Positions 3,585-35,796 of a DNA stretch of 35,796 nucleotides are shown here, piece by piece; the stretch's first letter is position 1; each line of letters begins with the position of its first letter. The translations under genes and the position numbers were made by a program. The stretch is from a virus, in IMG/VR virus record IMGVR_UViG_3300044701_000724, positions 1 through 35,796 of that record; one strand, written 5' to 3'. Under the pieces are notes generated by a model. That model worked only from the letters and a program-made list of their open reading frames with translations. It made no database searches and had not been told where the DNA came from.

Positions 3585-3610
3585 AAGCCCTAAAATATAG
3601 GGCTTTTTTT
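3585..3610 (+). terminator. Strong intrinsic terminator ending the P1 unit
   Basis: Perfect 8-bp arms AAGCCCTA / TAGGGCTT surround loop AAATA and run into T7. It starts 7 nt after the stop at 3578 and isolates the downstream repeat region from P1 transcription. Confidence 0.9.
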
Positions 3611-3689: not shown

Positions 3690-3790
3690 ACGGGCTTAAA
3701 AATAGCCCCGTTTGACTTGCTAGGTCTAGCCATGCCATGCCATGCCATGCCGTGACGCGCCCAACCGCGCCCAATGGCGGCCGCGTGCCC
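3690..3790. other. GC-rich island with tandem repeats
   Basis: In an AT-rich intergenic region this stretch holds an imperfect hairpin (ACGGGCT / AGCCCCGT, 3690-3711), four perfect tandem CATGC units (3731-3750), two adjacent copies of CGCGCCCAA (3756-3764 and 3766-3774) and a NotI-like GGCGGCCGC. No convincing ORF crosses it. Together with the iterons that follow it may be a replication or regulatory locus. Confidence 0.6.
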
Positions 3791-3797
3791 ATGCCCA

Positions 3798-4009
3798 TAG
3801 TGGAAAACATAGGGTAGTGGAAAACATAGCCTAGTGGAAAACATGGAGGTTTGACCCATAGTGGAAAACAAAACCCATAGTGTAAAACAGAATGATTCTA
3901 AATAAGACCCTAGTGGAAAATAAAATCCTCTACCAGGATACCCTAGTGGAAAATAAAATGTTGGACTTGTCCCCCATAGTGGAAAAAAAAATCACCCTAG
4001 TGGAAAAAA
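3798..4009. repeat. Iteron-like array, nine copies of TAGTGGAAAA
   Basis: Copies start at 3798, 3815, 3832, 3859, 3878 (TAGTGTAAAA), 3911, 3944, 3977 and 3998, most preceded by CC(A/C). Spacings are 17, 17, 27, 19, 33, 33, 33 and 21 bp, so four copies are set exactly 33 bp (about three helical turns) apart. The array starts after a terminator and ends one base before the P2 repeat. It is likely a multi-site binding region for a phage protein: an origin or a P2 control region. Confidence 0.85.
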
Positions 4010-4022
4010 AACTAATAATTTA

Positions 4023-4053
4023 TTTGCATTGAATATAGACTTTTGTAATTTCG
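4023..4053 (+). promoter_or_regulatory. Promoter P2, near copy of P1
   Basis: TTTG at 4023-4026, a 19-bp spacer and TAATTTCG at 4046-4053 match the consensus with one mismatch (TTCG for TTTG). The 25 bases 4011-4035 are identical to 1886-1910 at P1. The -7 box is weaker than in P1, and the repeat array abuts it upstream, so P2 may depend on the array-binding protein. Confidence 0.72.
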
Positions 4054-4075: not shown

Positions 4076-4315
4076 ATGTTAAAAGACCATTATTACTGCT
4101 TAGACCAGTCAGGGCTGACCCTGGAGCTGGAATCTTTCGAGAACCAGGGCATAGCCTTGGAACTATATTTTGGTGGGGGAAAGTCCCTGACCTTGGACAT
4201 CTACGATGACCTGACTGAGAAATTCTCAGACCACTACAGGACTATCTGTTCTGTGCTAGATCCATTTATTGTTGAACAATTAGAACAGGAGGTTAAGAAA
4301 TGTTTTATGAAATGA
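4076..4315 (+). CDS. Hypothetical 79-aa protein, first gene of P2 unit
   Basis: This acidic protein begins MLKDHYYCLDQSGLTLELES. It starts 23 nt after the P2 -7 box and ends ...KKCFMK with its stop inside the start region of the next gene. Predicted mostly beta then a C-terminal helix. No family recognised. Confidence 0.72.
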   Translation: MLKDHYYCLDQSGLTLELESFENQGIALELYFGGGKSLTLDIYDDLTEKFSDHYRTICSVLDPFIVEQLEQEVKKCFMK

Positions 4316-4485
4316 TGTCAGCCCAAGAGTACGGTGTACTGAAGGGCTATAGTGAAAAATCAACTCGAGTGCATCAGATCATCAGGTCTGGTAAATTCCC
4401 TGCTGAGTGGACTCATCCTCCTAAGAAGATAGGAAATCAATGGGTAGTATTCGTTGACCCTAATTGGATTAAAGATGGTAGATGA
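4300..4485 (+). CDS. Small helix-turn-helix protein, excisionase-like
   Basis: The 61-aa product contains MSAQEYGVLKGYSEKS-TRVHQIIRSGKFPAEW, the layout of an HTH_17/excisionase-type winged helix: sense-the-site helix, turn, recognition helix, then IGNQWVVFVD as the beta wing. It probably binds DNA, perhaps the adjacent repeat array. Two starts are possible: ATG 4300 follows an AGGAGG at 7-nt spacing, while ATG 4312 makes the ATGA overlap usual in this operon. I see no integrase, so a regulator is likelier than an excisionase. Confidence 0.72.
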   Translation: MFYEMMSAQEYGVLKGYSEKSTRVHQIIRSGKFPAEWTHPPKKIGNQWVVFVDPNWIKDGR

Positions 4486-4782: not shown

Positions 4783-4898
4783 TAAAAACATTAGACCAAT
4801 TAATAGGAGAACTTTACTTAATTAAAACAAACACACAAACACATGAAAGAACTAATTGCAATCCAGGCGGAGCTAAAGGCTCCAAAGAATCAGTTTAA
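4770..4898 (+). CDS. Possible 42-aa ORF overlapping ERF start
   Basis: MEDLVKTLDQLIGELYLIKTN looks like a plausible helix, and its start overlaps the previous ORF by 13 nt. Its second half (TQTHERTNCNPGGAKG...) reads across the ERF start in another frame and looks unselected. It may be a short upstream ORF that couples translation into ERF rather than a functional protein. Confidence 0.3.
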   Translation: MEDLVKTLDQLIGELYLIKTNTQTHERTNCNPGGAKGSKESV

Positions 4899-5376
4899 CG
4901 CATTCGGGAAGTACAAGTACCGATCCTGCGAGGACATCCTAGAGGCTCTAAAGCCCCTGCTGTTGAAGTACGAATGTACCTTGACGATTGAGGATGAGGT
5001 AAAAGAAGTAGGTGGAATAGTATTTATTGAATCTACTGCTGCTATTCAGGTGGATAAAGAAGGTAGAACAGAAGGCAGAGCGGTCACGGCTCAGGCAGGT
5101 ATCGACATTACTCGCAAGGGCATGGACATAGCTCAATCATTTGGTAGTTCTAGCTCATACGCTCGAAAGTACGCATTGAACGGGTTATTCCTGATTGACG
5201 ATACAAAAGACCCTGATAGTACAAATGACCATGGTGCAAAAAAGGAGGAGCTTAGTCCAAAGCATCCAAAGTGGCAAGGAGCCAAGGATTCCCTAGCTAG
5301 TGGAAAAGTAACTATAGAACAGATTAAGGCTGTGTATATATTAACAGCTGAAAACGAAAAACTTCTACTAGGATGA
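4843..5376 (+). CDS. erf: ERF-family single-strand annealing protein
   Basis: The 177-aa protein matches the ERF superfamily: an N-terminal KNQFNAFGKYKYRSCEDI segment (16-33), then a core with IESTAAIQV and ITRKGMDIAQSFGSSSSYARKYAL (about 89-112), the GSxxSYARKYAL signature. ERF proteins anneal complementary single strands during phage recombination and repair. It overlaps the exonuclease gene by 4 nt, making the usual annealase/exonuclease pair. Preceded by the leader ACAAACACACAAACAC. Confidence 0.92.
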   Translation: MKELIAIQAELKAPKNQFNAFGKYKYRSCEDILEALKPLLLKYECTLTIEDEVKEVGGIVFIESTAAIQVDKEGRTEGRAVTAQAGIDITRKGMDIAQSFGSSSSYARKYALNGLFLIDDTKDPDSTNDHGAKKEELSPKHPKWQGAKDSLASGKVTIEQIKAVYILTAENEKLLLG

Positions 5377-5972
5377 ATTTTAAATGCAGAGCAAGTGCCT
5401 TGGGTAAGTTAATGACTAACCCAAGGTCTAAGTCTGAGACTTTATCCCAGACTACAAAGAGCTACCTAGAAGAATGGGTAAAAGAGCAGATTTACGGAAT
5501 CAAGAAGCAGATTAATTCTAAGTACTTGCAGAAAGGATTGGCCCTAGAGGATCAGGCTATAGAGTTCTATTCTGTTGCTATGGATAAGGACTTCATGATT
5601 AAGAACCTAGACCACTTTGAAGATGATTTCTTCACGGGTACTCCCGACTGTATGCACGAGGGTATAGTCTATGACTTCAAGACCTCCTGGGACTGCTTTA
5701 CATTCCCTCTATTCGACCAAGAGCCTGACATGGGATACTACTATCAGCTTCAGGTGTATATGCACCTGACAGGGCTTAGAAAGGCTAAGCTAGTGTACAC
5801 GCTTCAGGATACACCTGACTATCTGACCCATGAGGAGCCTGTGAGCTACGCTCATGTGGATAACAGCTATAGAGTAAAAGAGTTTGAGATAGACTATGAT
5901 CCTATGGTAATTGAGACAGCCAAGGCTAGGATTCAAGAGTGTAGAGAGTATGTTAAAGAACTACTATCATGA
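5373..5972 (+). CDS. YqaJ/lambda-exonuclease-like recombination nuclease
   Basis: This 199-aa PD-(D/E)XK nuclease has GLALEDQAIEFY (about 55-66, first acidic residue), FTGTPDCM (87-94, metal-binding D) and YDFKTSW (99-105, the DxK catalytic strand). The later QLQVYMHLTG is the conserved Q-x-Y helix of YqaJ/RecB-type exonucleases. It should resect double-stranded ends to supply single strands to the ERF protein, with which it is translationally coupled (ATGA overlap). Confidence 0.9.
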   Translation: MNFKCRASALGKLMTNPRSKSETLSQTTKSYLEEWVKEQIYGIKKQINSKYLQKGLALEDQAIEFYSVAMDKDFMIKNLDHFEDDFFTGTPDCMHEGIVYDFKTSWDCFTFPLFDQEPDMGYYYQLQVYMHLTGLRKAKLVYTLQDTPDYLTHEEPVSYAHVDNSYRVKEFEIDYDPMVIETAKARIQECREYVKELLS

Positions 5973-7146: not shown

Positions 7147-7602
7147 ATGACATCACTAACACAGGAACAGAAAGACGAAGTCATCAGACTTTACAAGCTG
7201 AAAATAAAGAATAAGAACATTGCTAGGTTTCTAGGAGTATCATTCCATGTAGTGAACAACTTTCTCTACAAGGAATATCTAAAGACCAATGAGCGTGCTA
7301 AGAATAACGGAGCACATCTTAAACTAGCAGATGAGGTAATCGAAATGTACAAGAACGATTATCCCTACAAGCAGATCACAGAACGCACAGGACTATCACA
7401 TCACCAAATCTGTGAGATTATTAAGTTGACTACCTACCGCAGGAGACAAGGAATAACCATAAAAAATCTTAGAGAAGTGCAACGATTATGGGAGGAAGGA
7501 TACAAAATAGCTAACATTTCTTACAAGCTAGACATACCCTATGGACAGGTCCAATACTGGGTTCGCAAGATCCGTACAGGGGTGTACACAAGTGTACACT
7601 AA
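7147..7602 (+). CDS. Multi-HTH DNA-binding protein next to candidate origin
   Basis: I use ATG 7147 (151 aa), not the upstream TTG 7120. It has three homeodomain-like HTH units in series: EQKDEVIRLYKLKIKNKNIA-RFLGVS (about 5-30), ADEVIEMYKNDYPYKQITERTGLS (about 60-83) and NLREVQRLWEEGYKIANISYKLDIP (about 107-131). Such tandem HTH proteins bind repeated sites. The gene lies just upstream of the GTGTAMAC array, and the first repeats fall within its last codons, so it is a good candidate origin-binding protein or autoregulator (inference). Confidence 0.78.
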   Translation: MTSLTQEQKDEVIRLYKLKIKNKNIARFLGVSFHVVNNFLYKEYLKTNERAKNNGAHLKLADEVIEMYKNDYPYKQITERTGLSHHQICEIIKLTTYRRRQGITIKNLREVQRLWEEGYKIANISYKLDIPYGQVQYWVRKIRTGVYTSVH

Positions 7603-7852
7603 GTGTACACCTAAGTGTAAACCAAAATCGGCCTCCATTGGCTCCAATCGCAATAAGTGAACACTTTGAACACTTTTTGGGAAAAATGAAAAAAAATAAA
7701 TTTTCAGGTGGTAAAAAAAAACACTTTAACAAAAAAAGTGTAAACTTGTAAACCTAAGCCAAAAAAGTGCCAAAAATCGGGCAAATTAGAGAGTATAAGC
7801 GGTTTTAGGGGTTTACACTCTAGTGTAAACTTAGTGTAAACTTAGTGTACAC
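7582..7852. repeat. Candidate replication origin: phased GTGTAMAC clusters flanking an AT-rich core
   Basis: Left cluster: GTGTACAC at 7582, 7592 and 7603, GTGTAAAC at 7615 (spacings 10, 11, 12). Middle: GTGAACAC 7657, TTGAACAC 7666, GTGTAAAC 7738, TTGTAAAC 7746. Right cluster: GTTTACAC 7811 (inverted), GTGTAAAC 7823 and 7834, GTGTACAC 7845 (spacings 12, 11, 11). Helically phased sites flank a very A-rich stretch (about 7680-7740) that could melt. The 296-bp gap 7603-7898 holds no gene and leads straight into the primase-helicase. This is the layout of an iteron origin; function is inferred. Confidence 0.72.
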
Positions 7853-7898
7853 TTTTTGCCAAAAATAGCCCATTTTCTACAAACACTTGTAAAACGCA

Positions 7899-10106
7899 AT
7901 GAACGTCACTTTAGGAAGAGCAATTAATTTATTGAACGCTGGCTTCAGCGTAATGCCCATATCAGAAGGCAAAAAACCGCTGATTTTATGGAAGGAATAC
8001 CAGACTAAAAAGATAGAAAAAGCCGAGCTAGAACGGCTAGAGTCTAAAACCAAAGGTTATGGTATTATTACAGGATTTTATGGTACTGAATGTATAGACA
8101 TAGACCTAAAAGTATTCCCAAGTGTACAAGAGGGTAAGAAATTTTGGAATGAGTTTATCGCATTCGTTTCAGATTACATAGATGACTTCGCTAGAAAGTT
8201 TGTGATCTACAAGACTATCAACTCAGGATATCACATTATCTACAGATGCTCTAAGGTAGAAGGCAACAGAAAGCTTGCTACGCTCAAGGGACATTCTCAG
8301 GCTCTGATTGAGACTAGAGGTTCAGGTGGATACATCTACATCTACGATAATCAGGTCAGCGAATTGTCTTATGAGCAGATTCAGGAGATTACACCTGAAG
8401 AGCGTGATCTGCTGATGAATCTATGTAAGTATTTCCACTATGAAGAGAGGGTAGATGAAACGAGGCCAAAAGAGGCCGATTACAGCGGTCTAACACCTTG
8501 GGATGACTATAACCATAGGAACAAGGCATTGGACCTCTTACAAGGCGAATTTAGTGCCATTAAGCACCTGTCTGACCGCATAGTTCTACGCAAGGTAGAA
8601 AGCAAGGATGCTCTACACGGATTTATCTACAAGGACACAGGTCTGTGCTACCTGTTTACTACTGCAACCATCTACCCGCATGAGACACCGCTTAGTCCTT
8701 TTGCTATCTACGCATGGAAGTTCTTTAGTGGAAATTACTCTGAAGCTGCTAGAGAGTTATACAAGGAAGGATATGGAGAACGCAAGATTAAGAAGGTAGA
8801 GATTGAGCGTATCGAGATTCCAAAGGAAGAGCTGATATTTCCGCTAGAAGTGTTCCCTGAGACATTACAGAATTATATTCTGTTGAATCAGAAAACCTTG
8901 AATCATTCTATTGACTATATGGGTTGCTCCTTACTTTGGTACATTTCTATATGTATTGGTAACAGCTGCAAGGTTCAGGTCAAGACAGGATGGAGAGAGT
9001 CGGTAAACATTTGGCTAGGATTGATTGGCAAGGCAGGTCTAGGTAAGACCCCTAGTATAAATGCAGTCATATTCCCATTGGCTAAAAAGAATAGTTTTGA
9101 GATTAAGCATTATCAGAACGAATACAAGAAGTACAAGGAATATGAGAAGCTTTCTACTAAGGATAAGAAAGATGTGGAGGAAGTCAAAGAGCCTGTTAGG
9201 AAGCAGATTATTGTCAATGATGTGACTGTGGAGGCATTGGCGGATTTACATGAGGAGAATGCTGTAGGCATTGCAGTATTTAAGGATGAGCTTAATGGAT
9301 GGATTAAGGACATGAACAAGTACAAGCCTGGCTCTGACCTAGAGTTTTGGTTGTCCTGTTGGTCGAATCAGGAGGCTATCATGACTCGAAAGACTGCAAA
9401 GAGTAGCTTTATCCAATCCCCATTGATTCCTGTTCTTGGAGGCATACAGCCTGGGATATTCTCGCAGATTTCTACCTTGGAGAATAAGGACAATGGATTC
9501 CTAGACAGATTGCTTGTCTGCTATCCTGATAAGGACATCGAGCATTACAACAGAAATGCCATAGATCAGGAAGTATTGGATTGGTACGAGGCTTATATGT
9601 CTCAGTTCTATAACCTCATAAGAAAAGAAGTCTTGCAGTTTAATAAGTTTGGTGAGATAGAGCCTAGAGTGATACGATTTGATACGGAAGCAGAACAGGA
9701 ATGGGAGCGGATATTTAACAACATCACAGATATGCAGAACTCAGATGATATTTCTGAGTATGTGAAATCCATGTTGAGTAAGCAGAAGGCTTACATCCCA
9801 AGGTTCGCTCTGATAATTAATTCGATTACTGCTTACAATAATTCTAGCGGTTTTGATTGGGTAAGTAAGGATAGTCTCCTGAAGGCAGAGAAGTTGAGTA
9901 ACTACTTCATTGCCATGTCTAAAAAGATTAAGGTGAACTCATTGGAAAGCTCCGAGCTAAATGAGTTGGTTCGCTCATTAAAGAATGAATCGATTGAAAG
10001 AAAGATACAGCAGATTCAGGAAGCCATCCCTGATTTTAACCGCTCTGAGTTAGCAGAGTTACTGAATGTTAGTAGAACCACTATTTATAAACACTTAAAG
10101 AAATGA
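7899..10106 (+). CDS. Prim-pol / DUF3987-type primase-helicase
   Basis: This 735-aa replication protein has three parts. Residues 1-160 are a bifunctional primase/polymerase (AEP) domain: GYGIITG (53-59), the catalytic IDID pair (D67, D69), SGYHIIYR (109-116) and ETRGSGGYI (138-146). Residues about 320-640 match the DUF3987 helicase-like domain with Walker A GKAGLGKT (377-384) and Walker B-like VFKDE (460-464). The last 25 residues (RSELAELLNVSRTTIYKHLKK) form an HTH that could bind the adjacent repeats. It probably primes and opens the origin just upstream. Confidence 0.9.
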   Translation: MNVTLGRAINLLNAGFSVMPISEGKKPLILWKEYQTKKIEKAELERLESKTKGYGIITGFYGTECIDIDLKVFPSVQEGKKFWNEFIAFVSDYIDDFARKFVIYKTINSGYHIIYRCSKVEGNRKLATLKGHSQALIETRGSGGYIYIYDNQVSELSYEQIQEITPEERDLLMNLCKYFHYEERVDETRPKEADYSGLTPWDDYNHRNKALDLLQGEFSAIKHLSDRIVLRKVESKDALHGFIYKDTGLCYLFTTATIYPHETPLSPFAIYAWKFFSGNYSEAARELYKEGYGERKIKKVEIERIEIPKEELIFPLEVFPETLQNYILLNQKTLNHSIDYMGCSLLWYISICIGNSCKVQVKTGWRESVNIWLGLIGKAGLGKTPSINAVIFPLAKKNSFEIKHYQNEYKKYKEYEKLSTKDKKDVEEVKEPVRKQIIVNDVTVEALADLHEENAVGIAVFKDELNGWIKDMNKYKPGSDLEFWLSCWSNQEAIMTRKTAKSSFIQSPLIPVLGGIQPGIFSQISTLENKDNGFLDRLLVCYPDKDIEHYNRNAIDQEVLDWYEAYMSQFYNLIRKEVLQFNKFGEIEPRVIRFDTEAEQEWERIFNNITDMQNSDDISEYVKSMLSKQKAYIPRFALIINSITAYNNSSGFDWVSKDSLLKAEKLSNYFIAMSKKIKVNSLESSELNELVRSLKNESIERKIQQIQEAIPDFNRSELAELLNVSRTTIYKHLKK

Positions 10107-34326: not shown

Positions 34327-35689
34327 CTTCCGTGTCTATTCTGTCTATGTTTTCTGTTTCTAAATCAGTTCCTCGCATATCACTCAACGGCATATAGTTC
34401 GTAGGTACCAACACCTGAGTCTCATCTACCAATGTTCCATATCCTAGAGCTTCTCTAATCTCATCCTGACTGAATACCATTGCCTGACGCATCCAATGTA
34501 CCAACTCCTTCTTATCACCTTCCAATTCAGGATAAACGTCAGTGTCTGACATCACAACCAAGGTGTTGTCATTATACCATTCTCTAGCCATCTTAGTCCA
34601 CACATCATCCATCTTTCTCAACAATGGCAATACGCAGTTAGTCACAACTCTAGTGTCACCTGTCTCACTATTTGCCAATGTTCCCTGCGGAGTCAACAAC
34701 TGAGACGGGTATCCGTAGATATTAGCAATCTGTCTCTCCAAGTCCTGATTAAAGTCCAAGATACCCATGTCCACAGGACTCAAGCCTATCTGCACCCACT
34801 TCAGGTCACTAGGAGTCACAACAATGTCTCCTGCGTTATGCGCACCCATGTGGTTCTGTCTGAACGAATCGTTAATCGCTACAGCCTGCTCGGCAGTCAA
34901 CTCTGACTGATCTGCGTGTCTAGCGTTACCACTAACAATACCGCTAGGACCCATGTTAGCAAACAACGACCCTTGAGCTACATCTGCAAATCTCTTTTGA
35001 GAAATTACATTCAAGCTACTTCTTAGTGGACTCAACCCCCAGAACGTACTCTCGTATCCTTGCCACTCAGAAACAGGGTTAAAGTACTTAAAATGTGCTA
35101 TCTGCTCTCTAGGGATGATATTCTCAAAGTTATATGTAATCGCATACCCTGCCAACGGCTGTGTTCTTTCTCCTGACATTACAGGCTTCACAGTCGGACT
35201 CGGCACACTCCACAACTCTACAGGCTGCTTAGCTCGTAATCCAACCCCAGGCACGCTCGCATACACAATCGCATTCCCTGTAATCAACAGATACCCTGCA
35301 ACCTCTTCTCTCAGCTGTCTGCCTGTGCTAGTCGGGTTCGGCTTATCCATCAGCTCCAAGAACGGATGCTGCTCAATAGATTCAAACGCCTTAACTCTAA
35401 GCTTAGCCAACTCCGTAGCATTCTCCTTGTTCTTCAAGTACTTCTTCTTAGCAAAGTACTTCTCTGCAAATCGCTTGTCCTTGACCTTATACAACATCAC
35501 AGGAGCATCAGCAGACTTCTCTACAATCTTAGAAACCACAGACTGTACTACAGGGATACTCTTATACGCCTTATCTATAAATATGCTGTCTTTTGCATCG
35601 TAAGGCATCCAAACCCCCTTTATATACTGCCATTGCAACGCCTGTGGTAAGCCTAGCTCCTTAGTTCTAAATGCCTTGAGAAGATTCAT
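34295..35689 (-). CDS. HK97-family portal protein
   Basis: The 464-aa protein forms the dodecameric DNA gate. KSIPVVQSVVSKIVEKSADA (43-62) is the usual first core helix, then PFLELMDKPNPTSTGRQLRE, GYLLITGNAIVYA, and EQIAHFKYFNPVSEWQGYES with GLSPLRSSLNVIS, all typical of HK97 gp3-like portals. The acidic tail DEDEDEDIDQEL is notable. It starts at the contig end; its first 20 bases are repeated at 1-20. Upstream by 32 nt in the circle is terL. Confidence 0.95.
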   Translation of the reverse strand: MNLLKAFRTKELGLPQALQWQYIKGVWMPYDAKDSIFIDKAYKSIPVVQSVVSKIVEKSADAPVMLYKVKDKRFAEKYFAKKKYLKNKENATELAKLRVKAFESIEQHPFLELMDKPNPTSTGRQLREEVAGYLLITGNAIVYASVPGVGLRAKQPVELWSVPSPTVKPVMSGERTQPLAGYAITYNFENIIPREQIAHFKYFNPVSEWQGYESTFWGLSPLRSSLNVISQKRFADVAQGSLFANMGPSGIVSGNARHADQSELTAEQAVAINDSFRQNHMGAHNAGDIVVTPSDLKWVQIGLSPVDMGILDFNQDLERQIANIYGYPSQLLTPQGTLANSETGDTRVVTNCVLPLLRKMDDVWTKMAREWYNDNTLVVMSDTDVYPELEGDKKELVHWMRQAMVFSQDEIREALGYGTLVDETQVLVPTNYMPLSDMRGTDLETENIDRIDTEDEDEDIDQEL

Positions 35690-35796
35690 CTATTTCTATT
35701 TTATTTGTAAAAGTACAAATTTTACCTAAATAATTTCCCCCTTATCAGCACAAACCCCTCACCCTTCTTTTTCACCATCAACTCAGTCAATCCCCA
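35670..35796. repeat. Right copy of 127-bp terminal direct repeat
   Basis: Identical to 1-127; see the left copy. In a circular map these two copies are one. Confidence 0.95.
35722..35796 (-). CDS. terL: Partial second copy of terL 3' end
   Basis: These are the last 25 codons of terL repeated by the terminal overlap and cut by the contig end. It is not a separate gene; the full gene is at 53-1288. Confidence 0.93.
   Translation of the reverse strand, partial: WGLTELMVKKKGEGFVLIRGKLFR

Follow-up and report, generated by a model that had tools for sequence, protein, structure and literature searches.

What does a row of nearly identical decamers, all pointing the same way and ending just short of an early promoter, do for the phage that carries it? 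The row, which we call array 1, lies in IMG/VR record IMGVR_UViG_3300044701_000724; the window, by which we mean the whole stretch of DNA that was analyzed (35,796 bases), is probably a complete phage genome in circular assembly. Its terminal 127 bases are identical (1-127 = 35670-35796, an exact repeat). Since 127 is a common k-mer length for assemblers, we read this repeat as an assembly overlap and not as physical ends. Portal, terminase, capsid, tail and lysis genes are on the minus strand, and the plus strand holds an early block encoding an ERF annealing protein, an exonuclease, a three-HTH protein and a Prim-Pol/DUF3987 primase-helicase with a C-terminal helix-turn-helix (HTH) (Table 1). 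The proteins scanned include no integrase. An 80-aa orf at 3110-3352 matches Pfam Phage_TreK, a Staphylococcus phage terminal-repeat protein (E 1e-17). Relatives of the phage were found in IMG/VR only, and a search of GTDB genomes for relatives of the primase found none; matches to named phages are remote, the best being Cellulophaga and Arthrobacter phages at no more than 32% identity. As the promoters have the form reported for Bacteroidota, with TTTG near -33 and TAnnTTTG near -7 (PMC7366714), the host is probably a member of the Bacteroidota.

Table 1. Features of the window discussed in the text
Feature	Position	Strand	Description or basis
Window	35,796 bases		IMG/VR record IMGVR_UViG_3300044701_000724
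Terminator-like hairpin	3585-3605	+	Hairpin and T run, closing the upstream transcription unit
G+C-rich tract	3720-3797		Low complexity, with CCATG repeats; directly before array 1
Array 1	3798-4007	+	Nine direct repeats TAGTG[G/T]AAAA; pattern search, repeat finder, shuffles
Part of array 1	3878-4009	+	Four units exactly 33 bp apart (3878, 3911, 3944, 3977) and the last unit 21 bp further
Promoter P2	4011-4046	+	Bacteroidota-like; sequence, alignment to P1 and to the P2 promoters of relatives
orf 4076	4076-4315	+	79 aa, no known family; first gene after P2
orf 4300	4300-4485	+	61 aa, predicted winged HTH of the Xis/Cox/BldC kind; candidate array 1 binder
ERF single-strand annealing protein	4843-5376	+	Presumably P2-driven
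Exonuclease	5373-5972	+	Presumably P2-driven
Three-HTH protein	7147-7602	+	151 aa from the ATG at 7147; adjoins array 2
Array 2	7582-7860		Repeats of AGTGTA[A/C]AC facing both ways, some at 11-bp intervals; rigidly conserved spacing
Primase-helicase	7899-10106	+	735 aa; Prim-Pol, DUF3987 and C-terminal HTH; likely initiator

Eight units of array 1 are exact copies of TAGTGGAAAA on the plus strand (starts 3798, 3815, 3832, 3859, 3911, 3944, 3977 and 3998), and a ninth on the same strand, TAGTGTAAAA at 3878, has T for G. Start-to-start spacings are 17, 17, 27, 19, 33, 33, 33 and 21 bp. A pattern search thus bears out the sequence-only reading of this DNA, which had described nine near-identical decamers, four of them at an exact 33-bp phase, except that the span is 210 bp and not the 212 bp claimed. 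That reading had also set array 1 apart from the upstream promoter P1, which carries no array although its core copies that of P2, and an alignment agrees: P1 (1886-1910) and P2 (4011-4035) have the exact 25-mer ACTAATAATTTATTTGCATTGAATA in common, which suggests duplication or conversion of the promoter core. Within P2, TTTG is at 4023-4026 and CTTTTG at 4040-4045, the near-consensus -7 element ending in TTTG at 4042-4045.

The commonest 10-mer per 220 bp reaches 8 copies here and never more than 2 in 100 dinucleotide shuffles of the whole window, so a chance origin is excluded. Array 2, just before the primase-helicase gene, is the only comparable repeat cluster in the genome. Two other kinds of repeat could be set aside. 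Array 1 is not a coding repeat, since the units contain TAG and the spacings are not all multiples of three, and a structured RNA or single-stranded DNA element is ruled out by a fold no better than that of shuffles (z = 0.45, folded as single-stranded DNA only) and by the absence of an Rfam family match.

Array 1 lies between the terminator-like hairpin and the promoter-like P2, positions from which its DNA would be non-transcribed. The tract before it has ~67-68% G+C in 60-bp windows, against roughly 40% for the genome, and the stretch after it has 23-25%, though this overlaps promoter P2. Many relatives carry differing G+C-rich low-complexity tracts at the same place.

How general is the array? 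Loci were gathered through the primase, the array pattern itself and orf 4300, and presence was counted among the 104 distinct sequences that extend 350 bp or more upstream of orf 4076. All 104 carry the array, with 4-18 units each, most often six to eight and never fewer than 4; a check for close relatives that keep the flanking genes and have lost the repeats, suggested when the array was first described, therefore turned up none. Conversely, orf 4076 is downstream of practically every array. Among 781 units in 113-114 distinct arrays, none is reversed. Unit counts of 6, 7, 10 and 12 occur in relatives with 94-96% identity in the right flank, and a relative at 93.7% carries 8; units are thus gained and lost while the cores persist.

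The core consensus reads T-A/G-G-T-G-G/T-A-A-A; after it come A/T, C/T, A and a run rich in A. Information per position, taken over 66 promoter-proximal blocks that could be aligned, is 1.84-1.87 bits in the cores, 1.44 in the spacer and 1.11 in the stretch after the promoter. Across arrays, the commonest spacings are 29, 19, 27, 39, 17 and 33 bp, with others to 58 bp and more. There is no strict helical phase; odd-number spacings are in excess (93%), probably a result of shared descent. In 72 arrays, 33 bp separate the last unit from the TTGCA promoter element; 14 arrays have 26-27 bp there and 19 have 32 or 34-35 bp. The distance from that unit to the start of orf 4076 is 77-97 bp in nearly all.

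Some arrays have further elements. Inverted repeats are mildly enriched in the spacers (15 of 93 with p < 0.05). A palindromic element of the type GAACCAGTTC / AACCGGTT occurs within or shortly before 53 of the 113 arrays (L006, L013, L033, L042, L057 and others) and is absent from the window's own. Upstream of the array in L018, L029, L031, L040 and L099, there are several copies of degenerate units such as TAGACGAAAACAAAA and TAGTATAAAACAAAA, in which the A-rich half is kept and the GTG core lost. Pattern matches in L093 and L183 proved to be an unrelated, apparently coding repeat. In 257 Gb of GTDB contigs, the pattern was found in 4 stretches, each with 2-3 copies in unrelated contexts, which we read as chance.

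The limits of the distribution are informative about what the array belongs to. Array-bearing relatives include versions of orf 4076 at only ~60% identity, and distant relatives without orf 4076 lack array 1. Two of these (L284 and L287) have a homologous exonuclease, the primase and all or part of ERF, with no orf 4076, clear orf 4300 or array. In L081/L256, the primase is 64% identical and an orf-4300-like protein is 32% identical, with a different helix segment, and there is no array. Since all of these keep the primase without the array, array 1, by gene content, tracks the orf 4076/orf 4300 module and not the primase as such.

Because every sequenced relative with the same neighboring gene has the row while its numbers change, array 1 most likely serves as a set of landing sites for a protein that regulates early genes. 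More specifically, we lean toward the view that it is a unidirectional multi-site operator or enhancer for P2, bound by a phage protein. The sequence-only reading had left the choice between an iteron origin and a P2 operator. The second of these is favored by the position upstream of P2 and orf 4076 at 104 of 104 loci and the single orientation, and a regulatory site for P2 in particular by the narrow promoter distance, the upstream terminator-like hairpin and the lack of an array at P1. As the stretch between the last unit and the promoter is present in a single copy, the narrow distance could also come from descent alone.

If array 1 is an operator of this kind, how might it work? It is attached to P2 and hence to early recombination and replication genes, namely orf 4076, orf 4300 and those for the ERF annealing protein and exonuclease; P2 transcription probably reaches the genes for the three-HTH protein and primase-helicase as well. 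The units, of which the shortest measure 17-19 bp, would be occupied by a DNA-binding protein that the phage encodes. Since every array has several sites, all facing one way and ending within a narrow range of distances from the promoter, their occupancy, presumably cooperative, probably switches P2 steeply with protein concentration, the protein acting as activator or repressor. Recombination between repeats would add and remove units, letting copy number drift without loss of the core or of the link to the promoter.

The likeliest binder is the winged-helix protein of orf 4300, which from gene order would belong to the same operon and could thus exert autogenous control. It matches HTH_17 weakly (E 0.14, below family cut-offs). 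Its AlphaFold model is a winged HTH (mean pLDDT 82) that in structure comes closest to BldC (Z 5.3) and lambda Xis (Z 4.7), followed by 4lhf, a phage P2 DNA-binding protein that we take to be Cox (Z 4.1), Pukovnik Xis (4.0) and RdfS (3.8); these middling values fall short of what the tool treats as a secure match, and for the predicted model they indicate a common fold only. Residues 19-31 (EKSTRVHQIIRSG, the recognition-helix segment) are invariant in 18 variants that are otherwise 70-95% identical to the window's protein. Against this candidate, L256 encodes a 32%-identical relative of it yet lacks the array. Covariation could not pick the binder, as a comparison by eye of the G/T core variant with variants of orf 4300 or of the three-HTH protein revealed no clear-cut association, and array types seem to have been exchanged between phages by recombination. 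BldC binds direct repeats head to tail (PMC5859096), as do excisionase-type regulators (PMC7498355), at sites 10-11 bp, or about one helix turn, apart (PMC7498355, PMC5859096). Since the units of array 1 are 17-58 bp apart without strict helical phase, a filament of the known type does not fit, and by analogy the orf 4300 protein may work like these regulators without being one of them.

It is also possible, though we consider it unlikely, that the replication initiator binding array 2 also uses array 1 as a second site of binding, through either the C-terminal HTH of the primase-helicase or the three-HTH protein. Array 2 is likely a replication origin and/or an operator of the primase gene, and is the best origin candidate in the window. 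In the clades inspected, repeats persist before the primase: rigidly spaced ones in the window's clade, GTGTAAAA in L081 and TTTTGCAA-type repeats in L082; such persistence with altered motifs would be expected of an origin read by a changing initiator. Array 1 could then be an accessory origin element, an origin-looping site or an initiator sponge, similar to the two kinds of RctB site; in that precedent, there are 12-mers and 39-mers, as well as a 29-mer in the promoter of RctB (PMC6090056). Consistent with a shared binder, the two arrays stand alone in the genome, their cores are alike and in register (TAGTG[G/T]AAAAC and [A/T]AGTGTA[A/C]AC; permutation p = 0.04, only marginally significant), and the repeat before the primase of L081 has the array 1 form. 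However, L081, L284 and L287 retain the primase without array 1; the G at core position 6, commonest in array 1, was not seen in array 2, nor the ACAC half of array 2 in array 1; and array 1 has neither the rigid spacing nor the two orientations of array 2.

A combination of these ideas, which strikes us as rather improbable, is that array 1 is an enhancer of adjustable length, retuned by recombination, that shares its binder with array 2 and thereby couples transcription to replication through competition. The retuning would possibly be done by the phage's own ERF protein and exonuclease, themselves made from P2.

The origin half of the original proposal has weakened, and we doubt that array 1 is an iteron-type replication origin of the phage. 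Its direct repeats in one orientation, its location in the early region, its iteron-like repeat number and its flanking by a G+C-rich tract and by an A+T-rich stretch, which however is also promoter P2, would suit an iteron origin. Nevertheless, a classical one is unlikely, since the spacing is irregular, there are no DnaA boxes (no perfect TTWTNCACA in the arrays with their 781 units), and a second, rigid repeat region abuts the primase-helicase gene. Array 1 is also missing where the primase persists, and array 2, which persists with altered motifs in distant relatives, fits an origin better. GC skew, with its minimum at ~2 kb and maximum at ~14 kb, was of no use as an origin marker because both extremes coincide with the switch in gene orientation.

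Slightly less probable still is a packaging (pac) site read by the small terminase, in which unit orientation would set the direction of headful packaging. The uniform orientation suits this idea, the terminase genes are ~2 kb away, and if the terminal repeat is an assembly overlap, packaging may be headful. However, pac sites are usually in or beside the small-terminase gene, and in all relatives the array precedes P2 and orf 4076.

Could the array be a selectively neutral minisatellite, expanding by slippage or through the phage annealing recombinase? Unit number does differ between near-identical phages, but we think neutrality very improbable for an array that is present at every one of the 104 loci, is never reversed and never falls below 4 units there, and keeps conserved cores between variable spacers even where orf 4076 is only ~60% identical. 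That host DnaA binds the units is scarcely credible: on the other strand, they read TTTT[C/A]CACTA, and TTTT[C/A]CAC fits 8 of the 9 positions of the DnaA box TTWTNCACA, the free N position included, but T replaces the last A, and the arrays contain no perfect box, which speaks against a DnaA-box cluster.

Little is known of early gene control in Bacteroidota phages. Here, a whole uncultured lineage retains putative binding sites, one-way and variable in number, that are tied to one early promoter and accompanied by a candidate regulator in the operon. With their differing site numbers and spacings, the more than 100 natural arrays form a ready series for determining what a phage enhancer needs of its sites and their spacing. 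If it is true that a replication protein also binds the sites of array 1, early transcription would be linked to replication.

How does the favored operator or enhancer compare with known systems? The origins of P4-type phages pair a primase-helicase initiator, which has a C-terminal HTH, with two repeat regions separated by a few kb. The window phage is alike in both respects; however, relatives can keep the primase and lack array 1, and any role of the array in replication is hypothetical. Plasmid iterons and Vibrio chromosome 2, with RctB, likewise have one-way direct repeats and a second region near the initiator gene, whereas array 1 has irregular spacing, no DnaA boxes and an initiator gene that is 3.9 kb away and has repeats of its own.

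The operators of Apl (phage 186), Cox (phage P2), lambda Xis and BldC are also among the closest known systems. They differ from array 1 in the tighter packing of their sites (10-11 bp, against 17-58 bp here with a minimum common spacing of 17; PMC7498355, PMC5859096). Unlike excisionase-type systems, the window phage has no integrase among the proteins scanned, and the sequence relationship of orf 4300 to these regulators and to BldC falls below family cut-offs. What they have in common with array 1 is a small winged-HTH protein of matching fold encoded in the operon (at the level of fold only, with middling Z values), a number of sites that varies, and head-to-tail direct repeats at an early promoter.
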